From an uncultured Bacteroidales bacterium (GTDB lineage: Bacteria; Bacteroidota; Bacteroidia; Bacteroidales; Muribaculaceae): 64,000 nt of DNA. The stretch is from assembly GCA_945829225.1 (NCBI GenBank), contig CALZTY010000007.1:1-64000 (forward strand), given 5' to 3'. Shown here piece by piece: positions 4,772-49,211 of this stretch; the first letter of the stretch is position 1, and every line of letters starts with the position of its first letter. Under the pieces are notes generated by a model that saw only the letters and a program-made list of their open reading frames with translations, was not told where the DNA came from and did no database searches. The position numbers and the translations under genes were made by a program.

Positions 4772-6157
4772 ATGACACCTACAACAACCACAATCAATCC
4801 CGTCTGGACAGCCATTCATTCAGAACTGTTCAATGCCTGCAAAGACATGTTCTCGGTCAATCCCACCACTGGTGAAATAGAACAGAAGATGGACAAAACT
4901 GCTAAGGATAGTCTTAGGAGCACCCTTGTCCGTATTACTCTGGGGCGAGCAGAAAAAGAACAACACCAGTGTGCCAACAACTCATCCAACGCCGCCTCCG
5001 GACTTAAACAGATTGTCATCTGGCCCGGAGGCAAGAAGAACGAACTCAAATTCATACTCCCCAACCTCCCTTCGTACGACCGTTTCTTTGAACCATTCGT
5101 TGGAGGTGGTTCCGTGTTCATGGGTATAAACTCCAAAGAGCACTATATCAACGATTTCAGCCCCCGTCTGATTACCCTCTACAAACACATCGCTTCGTCA
5201 GACAAACGGTTCTTTCACTATCTTGAAGCAATTGACATGTCAATAGTGAAGGCTGGTGAGTTTGCACACAGGTATCAGGAAGTACTGGCCAATATATACG
5301 AACAGTTCAGAACTGATGTCATACCCAAAGAGGAAATGAAGAAAGCCGTATCAGAGTGGTGCGAAAGAAACAAAGGTGAGATCCTTGACATCATTGGTGA
5401 ATTCACATCCTTCCCATGTACTCTCGTGCAGGAGGTGAAAGACTATATCTGTGGAAAGTGGGGAAAGTTCCCAAGAATGAAAAAGAGAGGGACTGTTGGT
5501 GACTGGGTCTATAAGAACATTGAGACCGCAGTCAAGGGAGCGGTCTATAATAACTATCGTCGCCTTTTTAATGACAACGCGATTATGAGTATAAATGCTC
5601 CACTTCGGTCAGCTCTATGCGTTTATATTTGTAAGTTCTGTTACTCTGGCATGATGTCGTACAATAAAAAGGGAGAATATAAGACGGCCTATGGCGGTAA
5701 CGGATTGTCAACTAAACGACTTCAAAATGACATTTCGTACTACCAGTCAGAGCGTGTAAGAAAACATTTCATGAACGCCCATATATACAACTACGATTTT
5801 GAAGAATTCCTACTCAAGACCAATCCCACGGAAAACGATTTCATATTTCTGGACCCGCCCTATGACAGTAAATTCAGTTCGTACGATAATAATGAATTTA
5901 ATAGGAACGACCACAAGAGACTGGCTGACTATCTCCTGAATAAATGCAAGGCAAAATGGATGATGATTATCAGTAAGACTGACTTCATCTACGACCTTTA
6001 CAATCAGCCTGGCATTCATATACAGGAATATGACAAAAAATATACATGTAATACAAAGGGTTGGAAGAACAGGGATGTCATTCATCTACTTATCACCAAC
6101 TATGACACAAGTGAGGTTAGTGATAGCAAAGATATGGAACACAACCTTGCTGCCTGA
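4772..6157 (+). CDS. D12-class (Dam-like) DNA adenine-N6 methyltransferase
   Basis: A 461-aa protein with WPGGKKN near residue 90, AdoMet motif I FFEPFVGGGSVF near 105-115, the NKKGEYKTAYGGN block near 310, and catalytic motif IV FLDPPYDS near 358-365. This order (I before IV) is the alpha/D12 class, of which Dam is the type member, so the product methylates adenine N6. It is much longer than Dam (about 270 aa), with an N-terminal extension of about 85 residues and a helical insert of about 130 residues between motifs I and IV. The recognition site cannot be read from sequence. It is driven by a promoter sharing its operator with the C5-MTase. Confidence 0.93.
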   Translation: MTPTTTTINPVWTAIHSELFNACKDMFSVNPTTGEIEQKMDKTAKDSLRSTLVRITLGRAEKEQHQCANNSSNAASGLKQIVIWPGGKKNELKFILPNLPSYDRFFEPFVGGGSVFMGINSKEHYINDFSPRLITLYKHIASSDKRFFHYLEAIDMSIVKAGEFAHRYQEVLANIYEQFRTDVIPKEEMKKAVSEWCERNKGEILDIIGEFTSFPCTLVQEVKDYICGKWGKFPRMKKRGTVGDWVYKNIETAVKGAVYNNYRRLFNDNAIMSINAPLRSALCVYICKFCYSGMMSYNKKGEYKTAYGGNGLSTKRLQNDISYYQSERVRKHFMNAHIYNYDFEEFLLKTNPTENDFIFLDPPYDSKFSSYDNNEFNRNDHKRLADYLLNKCKAKWMMIISKTDFIYDLYNQPGIHIQEYDKKYTCNTKGWKNRDVIHLLITNYDTSEVSDSKDMEHNLAA

Positions 6158-43323: not shown

Positions 43324-43331
43324 TACCTTTG
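43324..43331 (+). promoter_or_regulatory. -7 box TACCTTTG of the first receptor-kinase gene
   Basis: TACCTTTGCACTCA motif 40 bases before the ATG; duplicated exactly 2000 bases downstream. Confidence 0.8.
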
Positions 43332-43363
43332 CACTCAGTAATAATACATTATCTCATTGATTT

Positions 43364-45184
43364 ATGCACCTCTCTAACGACACTCTCCTCCAAGGAGGAA
43401 AATATAAGATTATCCGCTTCATTGCAGCCGGAGGCTTCGGCTGCACCTACGAGGCGATGCACGTTATGCTCAATAAGCGCGTGGCTATCAAGGAGTTCTT
43501 CGTCAAGGACTTTTGCAATCGCGACGAGCAGTCGGGGCATATCTCCATCGGCACCAACAGCAAGCGCGACTTGGTAGCCAAACTCAAGCGCAAATTCCTC
43601 GACGAGGCTCGCGCTGTCAGCGCTATGTCTCACCCGGGCATCGTCCACGTTAGCGACGTGTTCGAGGAGAACGGCACCGCATATTTTGTGATGGATTTTA
43701 TCAAGGGTCGTTCGCTTGCCGAAATAGTTAAGGCTGAAGGACCGATGAGCGAGCCTCGCGCCCTGGGATACATCAGACAAGTGTGCGCCGCCCTGCACTA
43801 TGTACATTCGCAGAACCGCCTCCACCTCGATATCAAGCCCCAAAATATCATGGTCGATGGAGCCGACCGAGCCATCCTTATTGACTTCGGAGCCTCGAAA
43901 CAGTATGACGAGGAAAGTGGCGAAAACACCTCCTCGCTCCTCGGCTTGACCCCCGGCTATGCGCCGCCCGAGCAGTCCTCGCAGGACCTTCAGCACTTCT
44001 ATCCCGCGACCGACATCTACGCCCTGGGTGCCACATTATATAATATACTCACCGGCAGTACGCCTCCCGACAGCGCCCGCCGCATCAGTGGCGACGACGT
44101 TCAGCCACTGCCGCCCTATGTAAGCGCCTCGACTCGCACAGCAGTCGATGCCGCACTCGAACTCAACAAGAAGAAGCGCCCGCAATCTGTCGCCGCCTTC
44201 GCCGCCCTCCTCGATAACACCCCGGCACCTGCCCCGGCACCTCAGCCAATAAAGCCCAGGGACAATGGCGAGACGCAGCCGCTTGTGGCAAAGCCGATGA
44301 CGCCGTGGTACAAGCGCTATGCAGCGTTGATAGCCATCGTCGCCGTAGTAGCAGTAGCCGGCATCATCGCCTTGCTGAGCGGTGGCAACAACGTGAAGCC
44401 TTCTGACGTTGAAGAAGACACTCTCGCAGAGGTAGTGGAACTTGGCGACACAGCAGTAGCGACCATAGACGTCAGCGAGTACACAGCGCAGCCACAAGCG
44501 CAACCGGTGATGCCCGAGGCGACGCCCGAACCACAACCGACGCCGGCACCGCAACCGCAACCACAAACACAGCTACAACCGACCCCGGCACCACAACCGC
44601 AGCCACAACCACAACCCGCCCCGGAACCTGCATGTACCCCCACAGGCTCGTACAATGGACGTGACTACGTAGACCTGGGCTTGTCAGTTAAATGGGCGAC
44701 TTGCAATGTAGGTGCGAGCAGTCCCACAGGTTATGGCGACTTCTATGCCTGGGGTGAGACAAGCGCCAAGACTGAGTACACCGAGAGCAACAGCAACACA
44801 TATGGCAAACAGATGGGTAGTATTTGCGGCAACCCATCTTACGATGTAGCAAGATTAAAGTGGGGTAGCCACTGGCGTTTGCCATCAGCATCAGAGATAA
44901 AAGAATTAGAAGACAACTGCACCTGGGAATGGACGACGATGAATGGTGTTAACGGCTACAAGGTAAAGAGCAAGCGCAACGGCAATTGGATCTTCCTCCC
45001 TGCTGCCGGTCGGCGCTTTGGATCGTCGCTCATCGGCCGTGGTTCTGACGGCTACTATTGGAGTGGTTCGCCCAACGAGAGCGGTTCCTACAACGCCTGC
45101 TACCTCGTCTTCATTTCGGGCGCCCATCGCCGGGCTTGGAACTACCGTTACAACGGTCGATCGGTCCGTCCTGTGGCAGAATAG
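43364..45184 (+). CDS. Receptor-like Ser/Thr protein kinase with FISUMP extracytoplasmic domain (copy 1)
   Basis: A 606-aa protein. The kinase domain (about 12-270) has glycine loop FIAAGGFGCTYEA, VAIKEFF (Lys43), catalytic loop LHLDIKPQNIM (His154-Leu-Asp156, so non-RD) and ILIDFGASK. A TM helix lies at about 322-342 (ALIAIVAVVAVAGIIALLSG), then a Pro/Gln-repeat linker and a C-terminal FISUMP domain (WATCNVGASS, FYAWGE, WRLPSASEI, IFLPAAGRR, YYWSGS, SVRPVAE). The kinase faces the cytoplasm and the FISUMP domain the periplasm, probably as sensor. Tandem near-copy at 45364. Confidence 0.93.
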   Translation: MHLSNDTLLQGGKYKIIRFIAAGGFGCTYEAMHVMLNKRVAIKEFFVKDFCNRDEQSGHISIGTNSKRDLVAKLKRKFLDEARAVSAMSHPGIVHVSDVFEENGTAYFVMDFIKGRSLAEIVKAEGPMSEPRALGYIRQVCAALHYVHSQNRLHLDIKPQNIMVDGADRAILIDFGASKQYDEESGENTSSLLGLTPGYAPPEQSSQDLQHFYPATDIYALGATLYNILTGSTPPDSARRISGDDVQPLPPYVSASTRTAVDAALELNKKKRPQSVAAFAALLDNTPAPAPAPQPIKPRDNGETQPLVAKPMTPWYKRYAALIAIVAVVAVAGIIALLSGGNNVKPSDVEEDTLAEVVELGDTAVATIDVSEYTAQPQAQPVMPEATPEPQPTPAPQPQPQTQLQPTPAPQPQPQPQPAPEPACTPTGSYNGRDYVDLGLSVKWATCNVGASSPTGYGDFYAWGETSAKTEYTESNSNTYGKQMGSICGNPSYDVARLKWGSHWRLPSASEIKELEDNCTWEWTTMNGVNGYKVKSKRNGNWIFLPAAGRRFGSSLIGRGSDGYYWSGSPNESGSYNACYLVFISGAHRRAWNYRYNGRSVRPVAE

Positions 45185-45257
45185 TTTGATTTATTTAATT
45201 CATTAAAAAGACTTTGATTCATTCAAAGGAGCAAATTAAAAATACAAAAAAAGCAAA

Positions 45258-45301
45258 GCCGCGACGACACCGCGCTGTTTACGGCGCGCAGTCGTTGCGG
45301 C
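45258..45301 (+). terminator. Large hairpin after kinase copy 1
   Basis: GCCGCgACGAC / GTCGTtGCGGC with inner CGCGC/GCGCG pairs; no strong U-run, but it lies between the two kinase genes. Confidence 0.5.
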
Positions 45302-45318
45302 GCCACAAGCGAGGTAAT
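45298..45318 (+). repeat. Duplication-boundary repeat, copy 1
   Basis: The 21-base string CGGCGCCACAAGCGAGGTAAT also occurs at 47276-47296, after kinase copy 2; it marks the ends of the tandem duplication unit. Confidence 0.7.
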
Positions 45319-45323
45319 TTTCT

Positions 45324-45331
45324 TACCTTTG
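45324..45331 (+). promoter_or_regulatory. -7 box TACCTTTG of the second receptor-kinase gene
   Basis: Same TACCTTTGCACTCA context as 43324, 40 bases before the ATG. Confidence 0.8.
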
Positions 45332-45363
45332 CACTCAATAATATTCCAATATCTCATTTAATT

Positions 45364-47232
45364 ATGCATCTCTCTAACGACACTCTCCTCCAAGGAGGAA
45401 AATATAGGATTGTGCGCTTCATTGCAGCCGGAGGCTTCGGCTGCACCTATGAGGCGGTGCTCATTATGCTCAATAAGCGCGTGGCTATCAAGGAGTTCTT
45501 TGTCAAGGACTTCTGCAATCGCGACGAGCAATCGGGGCATATCTCCATCGGCACCAACAGCAAGCGCGACTTGGTCGCCAAACTCAAGCGCAAATTCCTC
45601 GACGAGGCTCGAGCCGTCAGCGCTATGTCTCACCCGGGCATCGTCCATGTCAGCGACGTGTTTGAGGAGAACGGCACCGCATATTTTGTGATGGACTTCA
45701 TCAAGGGCCGCTCGCTTGCCGACATAGTCAAGGCAGAGGGACCGATGAGCGAGGCTCGCGCACTGGGATACATCCGCCAGGTGTGCGCTGCCCTGCACTA
45801 TGTACATTCGCAAAACCGCCTACACCTCGATATCAAGCCGCAAAATATCATGGTCGATGGCAACGACCGCGCCATCCTCATTGACTTCGGCGCCTCCAAG
45901 CAGTATGACGAGGAGAGCGGCGAAAATACCTCCTCGCTCCTTGGCTTGACCCCCGGATATGCGCCGCCCGAGCAGTCCTCGCTGGACCTTCAGCACTTCT
46001 ATCCCGCGACTGACATCTACGCCTTAGGTGCCACACTATATAATATACTCACCGGCAGTACACCTCCAGACAGCGCCCGCCGCATCAGTGGCGACGACCT
46101 TCAGCCTCTGCCGCCCTATGTGAGCGCTGCGACACGCACAGCCGTCAATGCCGCCCTCGAACTCGTCAAGAAGAAGCGCCCGCAGAGCGTTGCCGCCTTC
46201 GCCGCCCTCCTCGATAACACCCCGGCACCTGCCCCGGCACCTCAGCCAATAAAGCCCAGGGACAATGGCGAGACGCAGCCGCTTGTGGCAAAGCCGATGA
46301 CGCCGTGGTACAAGCGCTATGCAGCGTTGATAGCCATCGTCGCCGTAGTAGCAGTAGCCGGCATCATCGCCTTGCTGAGCGGTGGCAACAACGTGAAGCC
46401 TTCTGACGTTGAAGAAGACACTCTCGCAGAGGTAGTGGAACTTGGCGACACAGCAGTAGCGACCATAGACGTCAGCGAGTACACACCGCAAGAGGAGCCA
46501 GAGCCACAAGAGCAAGCGCAACCGGTGAAGTCCGAGGCGACACCCGAATCACAAGCGACGCCGGTATCACAACCGCAGCCACAGCCACAACCACAGCCAC
46601 AACCACAACCACAACCACAACCGGCACCGCAGCCAACACCTCAACCAACACCACAGCCCGCCCCGGAACCTGCATGTACCCCAACAGGCTCATACAATGG
46701 GCACGATTGTGTAGACCTGGGTCTATCAGTAAAGTGGGCGACCTGCAATGTAGGAGCCTCATCCCCGAGCGGTTATGGCGACTACTACGCTTGGGGCGAA
46801 GTAAGCACCAAGAGCGAGTACACCAAGGAAAACAGCCGTACATATGCCAATATCAACTACTACTTCAATATCTGCGGCAACTACTCATACGACGTGGCAA
46901 GATGTAAGTGGGGAAGTCCCTGGCGTTTGCCATCAGTATCAGAGATAGACGAGTTGTTAAATAACTGCACCTGGGAATGGACAACTGTGAATGGCGTTAA
47001 CGGCTACAAGGTGAAGAGCAAGTGCAACAGCAACTATATCTTCCTTCCTGCTGCCGATTTTCGCAGCGGGTCGTCGCTCCGCGATCGTGGTTCTTACGGT
47101 GACTATTGGAGTGGTACGCCCTACGAGAGCAGTTCCTACGGCGCCTACGGCCTCTACTTCGATTCGGGCGGCCGTTACCGGGGTTGGAGTTACCGTTACG
47201 GCGGTTGGTCGGTCCGACCCGTGGCAGAATAA
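45364..47232 (+). CDS. Receptor-like Ser/Thr protein kinase with FISUMP domain (copy 2)
   Basis: A 622-aa tandem paralogue of the 43364 gene with the same architecture: kinase (LHLDIKPQN, IDFGASK), TM helix, Pro/Gln linker and FISUMP domain (DYYAWGEVSTKSEY, WRLPSVSEIDELL, IFLPAADFRSG, DYWSGT, SVRPVAE). The ATG at 45364 is equivalent to copy 1; the longer in-frame start is not needed. The linker is longer and more repetitive than in copy 1. DNA 46192-46485 is identical to 44192-44485 while flanking kinase and FISUMP parts differ. The diverged FISUMP surfaces suggest different ligands. Confidence 0.93.
   Translation: MHLSNDTLLQGGKYRIVRFIAAGGFGCTYEAVLIMLNKRVAIKEFFVKDFCNRDEQSGHISIGTNSKRDLVAKLKRKFLDEARAVSAMSHPGIVHVSDVFEENGTAYFVMDFIKGRSLADIVKAEGPMSEARALGYIRQVCAALHYVHSQNRLHLDIKPQNIMVDGNDRAILIDFGASKQYDEESGENTSSLLGLTPGYAPPEQSSLDLQHFYPATDIYALGATLYNILTGSTPPDSARRISGDDLQPLPPYVSAATRTAVNAALELVKKKRPQSVAAFAALLDNTPAPAPAPQPIKPRDNGETQPLVAKPMTPWYKRYAALIAIVAVVAVAGIIALLSGGNNVKPSDVEEDTLAEVVELGDTAVATIDVSEYTPQEEPEPQEQAQPVKSEATPESQATPVSQPQPQPQPQPQPQPQPQPAPQPTPQPTPQPAPEPACTPTGSYNGHDCVDLGLSVKWATCNVGASSPSGYGDYYAWGEVSTKSEYTKENSRTYANINYYFNICGNYSYDVARCKWGSPWRLPSVSEIDELLNNCTWEWTTVNGVNGYKVKSKCNSNYIFLPAADFRSGSSLRDRGSYGDYWSGTPYESSSYGAYGLYFDSGGRYRGWSYRYGGWSVRPVAE
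46568..46622 (+). repeat. CCACAA/CAGCCA hexanucleotide repeat encoding a (Gln-Pro)n linker
   Basis: In-frame low-complexity tract in the linker of kinase copy 2; copy 1 has a shorter, different tract. Confidence 0.8.
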
Positions 47233-47250
47233 CTTAATTCATTGATTCAT

Positions 47251-47280
47251 CGTCGTCGGGCATTTAAGAGCCCGACGGCG
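47251..47280 (+). terminator. Terminator hairpin after kinase copy 2
   Basis: CGTCGTCGGGC / GCCCGACGGCG with an 8-base loop; poor U-run. Confidence 0.6.
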
Positions 47281-47296
47281 CCACAAGCGAGGTAAT
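47276..47296 (+). repeat. Duplication-boundary repeat, copy 2
   Basis: Second copy of CGGCGCCACAAGCGAGGTAAT (first at 45298-45318). Confidence 0.7.
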
Positions 47297-47684
47297 CATG
47301 CGCTCGCCAGCCGGCGAGCGCCAAAATTTACCAAAGTAAACACCAATGCCGACACACCGGTAATGACGTGATACAACACGTCGGTGGATGCCGTGCCTTA
47401 AGCAACCCACGTGTGAGTTGTGCTTGTTTTTTGGGGGGTTCGCATGAGCAACCTGCTCCGCAGGTTCTCGCCAGGGTCGGGTGCATGCGCGGACGCGATG
47501 TATCGCGTCCCTACAAGTTGTTGGTAATCAATGTGTTGTCTGTGGGAATTTGCAACCCCGCCAGGGTCTTGTTCCGGAGGAGGTGAATTAGACCAATTAG
47601 ACCAATTCCCAACCTTGCTCCAGACACTGCGTGTTAAGAAGTGTTGTAAAATATATAGTAGTGTTAACCATTAACACTCCAATG

Positions 47685-47815
47685 CCAAAAACATTTTGCG
47701 ATTTCCGACAAAAACCACCAAAAACATTTCCCGATTTCCGACAAAAACCGCCAAAAACATTTTGCGATTTCCGACAAAAACAGCCAAAAACATTTTGCGA
47801 TTTCCGACAAAATGC
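47685..47815 (+). repeat. Four tandem 33-bp repeats before an AAA_14/DUF4143 gene
   Basis: Units start at 47685, 47718, 47751 and 47784 and share CCAAAAACATTT, then CGATTTCCGACAAAA. The last unit ends at the -7 box of the ATPase gene. Each unit contains TTTTG...CAAAA arms (degenerate in unit 2). The period of 33 keeps one frame open across all units (PKTFCDFRQKP-like peptide), but no ribosome-binding context supports translation. Confidence 0.9.
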
Positions 47816-47846: not shown

Positions 47847-49211
47847 ATGAAAGAGAAAATCTTCAAGCGAAAACTATACGACAAAATGCTCCAATGGAAG
47901 CAAGATAGCAATGGAAAAACTGCGCTTTTGATCAAAGGTGCCCGTCGTGTCGGTAAATCCACGCTTGCCGAAGAATTTGCCATAAAAGAGTATAAAACTC
48001 ACATCCTCATTGACTTCTCTATCGCTGATGCTGCGGTCAAGGAACTTTTCTCGCATATTTCCGACTTGAACTTCTTCTTCCTGCGCCTTCAATCGTTATA
48101 CGGCATTACTCTCCATGAGCGAAAATCAGTGATAGTTTTTGACGAGGTGCAGTTATTTCCTCCTGCTCGGCAGGCTATCAAGCACCTCGTCAAGGACGGT
48201 AGATATGACTACATTGAGACAGGGTCGCTACTTTCAATCAAAAAGAATGTTCAAGGAATAGTGATACCCAGCGAGGAGACACGCATATCGATGTATCCTC
48301 TTGATTACGAGGAGTTTTTGTGGGCAATAGACAAAGAGCCTACTTATCAGTTGATAAAGTATTCTTACGAGCACCTCAAGCCCCTGGGCGATGCCGTTAA
48401 TCGAGATATGATGCGATATTTTCGCTTGTATATGCTCATTGGTGGTATGCCTCAGGCAGTTAATGCCTATCTTGACTCCAACGACTTCATGGCTGTCGAT
48501 AAGGTCAAGCGCAATATTCTTGAGTTATATATTGATGATTTTCGCAAGATTGACCCTACCGGAAGGGCGTCGCGCCTGTTTGCATCAATTCCCGGCGAAC
48601 TCGCCCGCAATGCTTCGCGCTACAAGGTGGGTAGTGTCATTGAAAATGCCACTGCTACACGTCTCGGCGAACTATTAATGGATATGTCCGACTCAATGAC
48701 CGTCAATTTTGCCTATCACGCCAATGACCCGAGCGTAGGCTTTTCGCTCCACGCCGATTACAATCACTTCAAAATGTTTATTGCCGACACCGGTCTGTTT
48801 GTTACCTTGGCATTTATGGACCGCAATTATACCGACAACGAGATTTATCGCAAACTCCTCTCCGACAAACTTGGAGCCGATTTGGGATATGTATACGAGA
48901 ATGTAGTGGCGCAGATGCTCCGTAGCGCCGGAAACGAACTATTCTACTATACCTTTAAGCAAGAAATCATTAAGGATGGTGAACAGGCTCCGGTAGAGAG
49001 AACCTACGAGATTGATTTTCTGTTATCACGTCGTGGCAAAGTTTGCCCCATAGAGGTGAAATCATCGGGCTATCGCTCTCACAAATCCTTGGATATGTTC
49101 TTCGAAAAGTACTCCGATCGAACACTCAACCGCTACTTGCTATTCACCAAGGACCTCGGCAAGGACCGCGATGTCATCTGTCTCCCCATCTACATGGCGC
49201 CTTTTCTCTAA
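47847..49211 (+). CDS. AAA_14/DUF4143 ATPase
   Basis: A 454-aa protein with Walker [14 protein letters not shown] near residue 35, Walker [12 protein letters not shown] near 95, [11 protein letters not shown] as sensor region and [11 protein letters not shown], then a winged-helix region. The C-terminal DUF4143 nuclease-like domain has YENVVAQML and the ID-x-L...IEVKSSG motif ([20 protein letters not shown]). This family of stand-alone P-loop ATPases is very common in Bacteroidales and has no firm function. The TTTCCGACAAAA repeats lie immediately upstream. The C-terminal region looks like a PD-(D/E)XK-type core, by motif only. Confidence 0.93.

Follow-up and report, generated by a model that had tools for sequence, protein, structure and literature searches.

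The question raised by a pair of tandem receptor kinase genes, copy 1 and copy 2, is what their C-terminal sensor domains recognise and how the ends of these domains came to differ. With their flanks, the genes occupy positions 43,324–47,296 of the window, the 64,000-nucleotide stretch analysed (positions 1–64,000 of contig CALZTY010000007.1, assembly GCA_945829225.1, from an uncultured Bacteroidales bacterium of the family Muribaculaceae), and their features are listed in Table 1. The two proteins are most probably receptor kinases diversified by a diversity-generating retroelement (DGR), a type of element known chiefly as a source of variation in phage tail proteins and adhesins. This reading is based on the architecture of the proteins, their paralogs, a mutation signature at the end of the sensor, and the presence of the same architecture under complete DGRs at two loci of other genomes (L087 and L148). 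The hypermutation marks on the sensor suggest that cells of this kind are able to alter the recognition specificity of their signalling receptors.

The kinase with the same C-terminal domain is encoded at eight places in the genome of the window: twice on contig C7 (copies 1 and 2) and once each on C13, C15, C5, C28, C8 and C30. The paralogs are therefore dispersed over the genome rather than confined to the tandem pair, and those outside C7 are named here by their contigs. The signature is located in the last 61 codons, designated the variable region (VR). Codon-position differences were tallied for all 15 pairs of six paralogs, and four pairs were tested statistically. Upstream of the VR, copies 1 and 2 differ at 18/114, 18/113 and 41/113 sites of codon positions 1, 2 and 3 respectively, whereas the VR exhibits 15/53, 16/54 and 8/54, which is a drop at position 3 (Fisher p 0.006) and a rise at positions 1 and 2 combined (p 0.008). 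Both effects are present in three of the four pairs tested, the position-3 drop between C15 and C5 being non-significant (p 0.11). Third-position differences amount to 0.36–0.39 upstream versus 0.15–0.17 in the VR.

The variable sites were then compared to a real DGR template. The template of L087 was mapped onto six of the paralogs as a yardstick, leaving out C8 and C28 as the most diverged. Three or more residues are found at 18/18 sites where this template encodes Asn, versus 6/43 of the other sites (Fisher 1e-10). The contrast persists when all eight paralogs are included (18/18 template-Asn sites vary versus 15/43 others, 1.3e-6) and when only the closest four are used (13/19 versus 3/44, 1e-6). 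Shifting the mask by 1–6 codons lowers the count to 5–11 of 18, and none of 10000 random masks reached 18. The third base of the template-Asn codons in the six paralogs is C or T in 104/108 cases, which fits AAC/AAT templates, because such templates would leave C or T at that position. Copies 1 and 2 thus exhibit the C-terminal region varying at AAC/AAT-derived codons by which DGR variable proteins are recognised. A similar pattern is observed in three kinases of a second genome, G077, where mean pairwise differences (codon positions 1/2/3) are 0.70/0.63/0.14 for template-Asn sites and 0.06/0.13/0.09 elsewhere. A template was also rebuilt from the VRs themselves, so that counts taken from it are partly circular. 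Against it, copy 1, copy 2 and C13 have 3, 6 and 5 mismatches at the 116 non-A sites and 24, 27 and 22 at the 49 A sites, and the non-A mismatches rise to 10 in C30, 12 in C15, 23 in C5 and 40 in C28.

Complete DGRs with this type of target were identified in a domain scan of named genomes, which provided 79 loci. Many of these are cut by contig ends, so the following counts are lower bounds. A kinase match is located in the same open reading frame (ORF) as the domain at no fewer than 11 of the 79 loci (L078 and L079 being from one genome, with ends alike), and a reverse transcriptase (RT) match is present within the locus in at least three (L087, L148, L150), as well as in one of seven viral loci (L157). 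All four RT-bearing loci contain a template repeat (TR), and the TR/VR mismatches fall at template A in 20/20 cases for L087, 25/26 for L148, 22/22 for L150 and 24/25 for L157. The targets of L087 (a Prevotellaceae metagenome-assembled genome, MAG) and L148 (a Bacteroides sp. MAG, N-terminus lost at the contig end) are composed of kinase, transmembrane (TM) helix, stalk and lectin-like domain, and downstream of each lie a small gene (a weak MutS_I match in L148), an Avd-like gene and the RT. The Avd-like genes match NF033474 with E 4.1e-14 (L087) and 1.4e-9 (L148), both short of the curated cut-off. Both loci thus combine an RT, a TR/VR pair mismatched (almost) exclusively at A and, below that cut-off, Avd. 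The template of both also lies in frame within the N-terminal part of the ORF of the RT (L087 9577-11073, L148 2492-4048), and for this reason the RT may carry a translated template copy. An L087-type RT (E 1e-30) is present in 11 of 297 genomes of the window's family. Of the stretches around these RTs, 7/11 contain a TR/VR pair with mismatches nearly all at A, and one (L192, 25/25 at A) has a target of the window's domain type; a kinase match was found in none of them.

Judged by sequence, copies 1 and 2 are Hanks-type Ser/Thr protein kinases with predicted activity. Their Pkinase matches are well above the curated cut-off, and the VAIK Lys, the catalytic Asp and Asn and the DFG motif are all present, together with PPEQ and the catalytic loop HLDIKPQN. 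The initial annotation had pointed out the HLD (non-RD) loop and had made its proposal depend on conserved catalytic residues in relatives. Both copies do contain this loop, the catalytic residues are conserved in relatives, and HLD is kept in 8/8 relatives examined; the non-RD state is therefore a family trait of these kinases. The layout resembles that of the PASTA receptor kinases (Stk1/PknB; NF033483) in its cytoplasmic Hanks kinase, single TM helix and outside sensor. It differs from them in that no PASTA model is among the Pfam matches of either copy, and assignment to the PASTA kinases was rejected since NF033483 aligns to the kinase part only, with 167.6 and 163.6 bits where 450 are required. 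An anti-phage kinase was likewise rejected: PADLOC includes many kinases (mad6, PD-T4-6), the best matches fall on the kinase part and they are non-diagnostic. No defence operon was seen in the two neighbours scanned (HSP70; AAA/DUF4143).

Following the kinase, both copies contain a single hydrophobic helix with K/R on its N-terminal side and acidic residues behind it, which reads as N-in/C-out by the positive-inside rule. The sensor domain would accordingly be in the periplasm, held on a stalk built from short Pro/Gln tandem repeats. The order of parts given by the initial annotation (kinase, single TM helix, Pro/Gln-rich stalk, C-terminal domain) is borne out by the Pkinase scores, hydropathy and repeats, and its extracytoplasmic placement of the C-terminal domain agrees with this reading of the helix. 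The C28 paralog (L030 1072-2724) has no predicted TM helix, and its variable region is the most decayed.

The C-terminal domain is approximately 172 residues in length and had been named FISUMP. This family name was rejected. PF09603 (FISUMP) is not among the matches up to E 10 in either copy, with none at E 0.001 genome-wide, and TIGR02145 matches copy 1 with E 0.068 and 13.9 of the 41.65 bits of its curated cut-off and is not among the best 25 of 34 matches listed for copy 2. The better match is Lcl_C (PF07603, which we take to be the family formerly named DUF1566), with E 1.4e-4 and 22.5 bits in copy 1 and E 3.4e-5 and 24.6 bits in copy 2, though its curated cut-off (34.9 bits) is reached by neither copy. 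Of 74 proteins examined together (copy 2 plus 73 of the 79 loci, six being dropped because the ORF spanning the match had its end outside the domain), Lcl_C is matched in 66 (E 1e-3), Pkinase in 10 and Fib_succ_major in three. One of the 74 bears a TIR domain. A structural model of the copy 2 domain, built from 57 sequences (two of the window and 55 of the 79 loci), has a mean predicted local distance difference test score of 96.6. The domain has no sequence match in the PDB, and Foldseek analysis of the model provided no significant match. VIA-align of the Foldseek candidates placed the C-terminal domain of Lcl first (8q4e; Z 7.8, root-mean-square deviation 2.5, 98 aligned), and the best 18 entries are all of C-type lectin (CLec) type, among them Bd2740, C-type lectins and 4eps of B. 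ovatus. Because this list is coherent, the model is likely to have a C-type lectin fold, though all Z values are below 8. Ligand sensing, as initially proposed, is supported as the likely role of the domain, and for a glycan as the ligand the evidence points neither way. At locus L124 (85-807), the lectin-like domain contains a tandemly expanded Tyr/Phe/Asp/Ser-rich stretch within its variable part.

Table 1. Features of the tandem receptor kinase genes and of the prophage-type DGR found in the same genome (window coordinates unless a contig or locus is named).
Feature	Coordinates	Strand	Basis or remark
Promoter-like element, copy 1, TACCTTTG	43324..43331	+	Fits Bacteroides -7 element TAnnTTTG; copy alignment
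Receptor kinase gene, copy 1	43364..45184	+	606 aa; ORF and Pfam
Kinase domain, copy 1 (residues 14-273), predicted, HLD catalytic loop	43403..44182	+	Pkinase 133.8 bits (cut-off 31.7); motifs
Predicted TM helix, copy 1 (residues 320-338)	44321..44377	+	Hydropathy
Linker and Pro/Gln stalk, copy 1	44378..44668	+	Tandem repeats; between TM helix and C-terminal domain
Sensor domain, likely C-type lectin fold (Lcl_C-like), copy 1	44669..45181	+	Profile matches
DGR-type VR, copy 1, last 61 codons	44999..45181	+	Codon-position and template-site tests
21-bp repeat, 3' flank of copy 1	45298..45318	+	Exact repeat
Promoter-like element before copy 2, same as that of copy 1	45324..45331	+	Copy alignment
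Receptor kinase gene, copy 2	45364..47232	+	622 aa; ORF and Pfam
Kinase domain, copy 2 (residues as copy 1; Pfam gives 14-236), predicted	45403..46182	+	Pkinase 132 bits (cut-off 31.7); motifs
Predicted TM helix, copy 2 (residues 320-338)	46321..46377	+	Hydropathy
Linker and Pro/Gln stalk, copy 2	46378..46710	+	Tandem repeats; between TM helix and C-terminal domain
Sensor domain, likely C-type lectin fold (Lcl_C-like), copy 2 (the modelled one)	46711..47229	+	Profile matches; structure model
DGR-type VR, copy 2, last 61 codons	47047..47229	+	Codon-position and template-site tests
21-bp repeat, 3' flank of copy 2	47276..47296	+	Exact repeat
Prophage-type DGR, contig C1, locus L026	VR 5561-5675; TR 5820-5934; RT L001 1285-2337		

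The presumed binding face of the sensor is unlike between all paralogs. One fixed ligand for the whole kinase family is unlikely, because a DGR-type VR takes up the last 61 sensor codons. Across the genus (49 genomes, counting that of the window), DNA matching the variable end is found in the window's own genome only, and related kinases elsewhere in the genus exhibit up to 58% identity. The C30 paralog is frameshifted, with its domain split over two frames (C30:23570-24087), and C22:10781-10835 is a 3' relic of another paralog; both may reflect decay or assembly error. Contig C61 (L033) contains a run of four large ORFs, three of which have distant copies of the sensor domain.

Diversification of these proteins by a DGR would act on a single-pass receptor whose kinase is cytoplasmic and whose Pro/Gln stalk holds a C-type-lectin-fold sensor in the periplasm. 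Template RNA would be copied by an error-prone RT, and the copy would be written in trans into the 3' end of each paralog, copies 1 and 2 presumably included. Randomised adenines of AAC/AAT codons would then give each kinase a different binding face, and ligand binding to the sensor would control the non-RD kinase by switching it. If this is true, new signal inputs could evolve in a single defined region, at its template-adenine sites, leaving the output untouched, and the family would be a natural library of binding faces coupled to a kinase and a test bed for the evolution of signalling specificity.

Several observations weigh against this reading. Of the pairwise differences between copies 1 and 2, those involving A make up no larger a fraction in the VR than upstream (22/39 versus 40/77), and since this fraction is equal in both it is not used as support; the codon-position and template-site tests do discriminate between the two parts. 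C8, C28 and C5 contain many changes away from template-A sites. The cognate template repeat was not found in the assembly of the window's genome (99.87% completeness, 85 contigs): the rebuilt template matches the paralogs and the C22 relic, which was examined as a template and rejected as the paralog remnant it is, and all other matches are at most 33 bits. Neither Avd nor a cognate RT was found in this genome. Its sole RT belongs to a prophage-type DGR on C1 with a tail-type target, its own template and TR/VR mismatches 18/18 at A, and this template was rejected as the kinase template since it does not match the kinase VRs. Twelve of the 79 domain loci were chosen, and of their 12 genomes seven have some RT match and three a close RT match. 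In G077, the template of the close RT (DGR locus L164) does not fit the three kinases (L088, L092, L110). As none of its components (template, RT, Avd) could be located in the assembly, the cognate DGR would be lost, unassembled or elsewhere.

Whether diversification is living or fossil is a near even choice. In the fossil version, which falls slightly short of an even call and shares its confidence with the DGR reading as a whole, the paralogs were diversified in the past, the cassette has been lost, and eight fixed sensors are now under ordinary mutation. This would account for a template, RT and Avd missing from so complete an assembly, for the absence of any L087-type RT from the window's genus (none of the 11 carriers among the 297 family genomes belongs to it), and for the non-A changes accumulated in C30, C15, C5 and C28. 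However, copy 1, copy 2 and C13 retain 95–97% of the non-A sites. As these sites are kept despite an upstream third-position divergence of about 0.36–0.39, the last writing of the VRs appears to be younger than the paralogs, and the cassette could also sit in a gap of the 85-contig assembly. A further-reaching proposal is that all eight dispersed non-RD kinases have their extracytoplasmic lectin-like sensors rewritten in trans from a single template, providing a clonally variable repertoire in a gut Bacteroidales population with a logic like that of immune-receptor or lectin-receptor-kinase repertoires; we offer it tentatively and consider it rather unlikely.

It is improbable that no retroelement was involved and that the paralogs simply diverged, with positive selection on the lectin-fold binding residues and gene conversion of the rest. 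Lectin-fold binding faces do tend to vary, and another part of the pair has probably undergone gene conversion, but positive selection gives no drop at third positions such as that in the VR. Conversion would also level the variable codons lying between conserved ones, and the positions of these codons coincide, one by one, with Asn codons in real DGR templates. The least probable view is that of the initial annotation, a sensor of FISUMP type for one shared ligand, possibly a glycan, with duplication for dosage. The architecture and topology are as it described, and the lectin-like fold would suit it, but the presumed binding face differs among all paralogs and the FISUMP models stay below their cut-offs.

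Diversification of a kinase-bound sensor has parallels in published systems, for which the comparisons draw on parts of the cited papers. Cyanobacterial DGR variable proteins contain an N-terminal Ser/Thr kinase and a C-terminal CLec domain and are mostly predicted to be cytosolic, and ligand binding is proposed to relieve autoinhibition of these kinase-CLec targets (Vallota-Eastman 2020, PMC7517822). They share with the proteins described here the kinase, the VR-bearing C-terminal CLec domain, the dispersed paralogs in one genome and a proposed role in sensing and signalling. In contrast, the present proteins contain a TM helix and stalk, have a VR predicted to be extracytoplasmic, belong to Bacteroidales, carry an Lcl_C-type CLec domain and have no cognate DGR found in the genome. 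FISUMP/DUF1566 domains are known DGR targets in the human microbiome (Ye 2014, PMC4159848), where a related C-terminal domain is diversified and the same B. ovatus structure, 4EPS, serves as the model. Those targets are lipoprotein, Ig-like and other surface proteins, and the word 'kinase' was not found in the part of that paper covered, nor in the parts covered of PMC8144416 and PMC6642488. The DGR-diversified putative antigen sensors of Thiohalocapsa PB-PSB1 (Dore 2024, PMC10907252) include a protein kinase among the target domains of a figure, and are similar in that their VR-bearing CLec sensors form part of multi-domain proteins for signalling or conflict. They differ in being gammaproteobacterial conflict systems, mainly with STAND and MoxR ATPases, and the receptor-kinase layout was not found in the portion of that text covered. 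In the searches of the open-licence literature, these cyanobacterial and Thiohalocapsa proteins are the only kinase targets of DGRs that were found, with none in Bacteroidales. As far as that literature shows, the single-pass receptor layout, the VR outside the cytoplasm, the occurrence in Bacteroidales and the eight copies per genome are new.

The two genes of the window appear to be a tandem duplication extending into the 3' flank, because their start codons (43364 and 45364) are exactly 2000 bases apart, as the initial annotation stated, and a 21-bp repeat follows each copy. This repeat had been described as marking the ends of the duplication unit; the match between 45298 and 47276 is exact (chance expectation 0), and its place 3' of each copy is that expected for the 3' flank of a duplicated unit. 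The duplication itself, also proposed there, is supported by both features. A stretch of 294 bases is identical between the copies (44192-44485 and 46192-46485, covering the kinase end, TM helix and stalk start), and recent gene conversion is likely here because the flanks differ. The elements at 43324 and 45324 are only candidate promoters, TAnnTTTG being what we take to be the Bacteroides -7 consensus. Downstream of the pair, a 33-bp tandem repeat of 3.9 copies (window 47684-47812) is located just before the AAA ATPase/DUF4143 gene at 47847.

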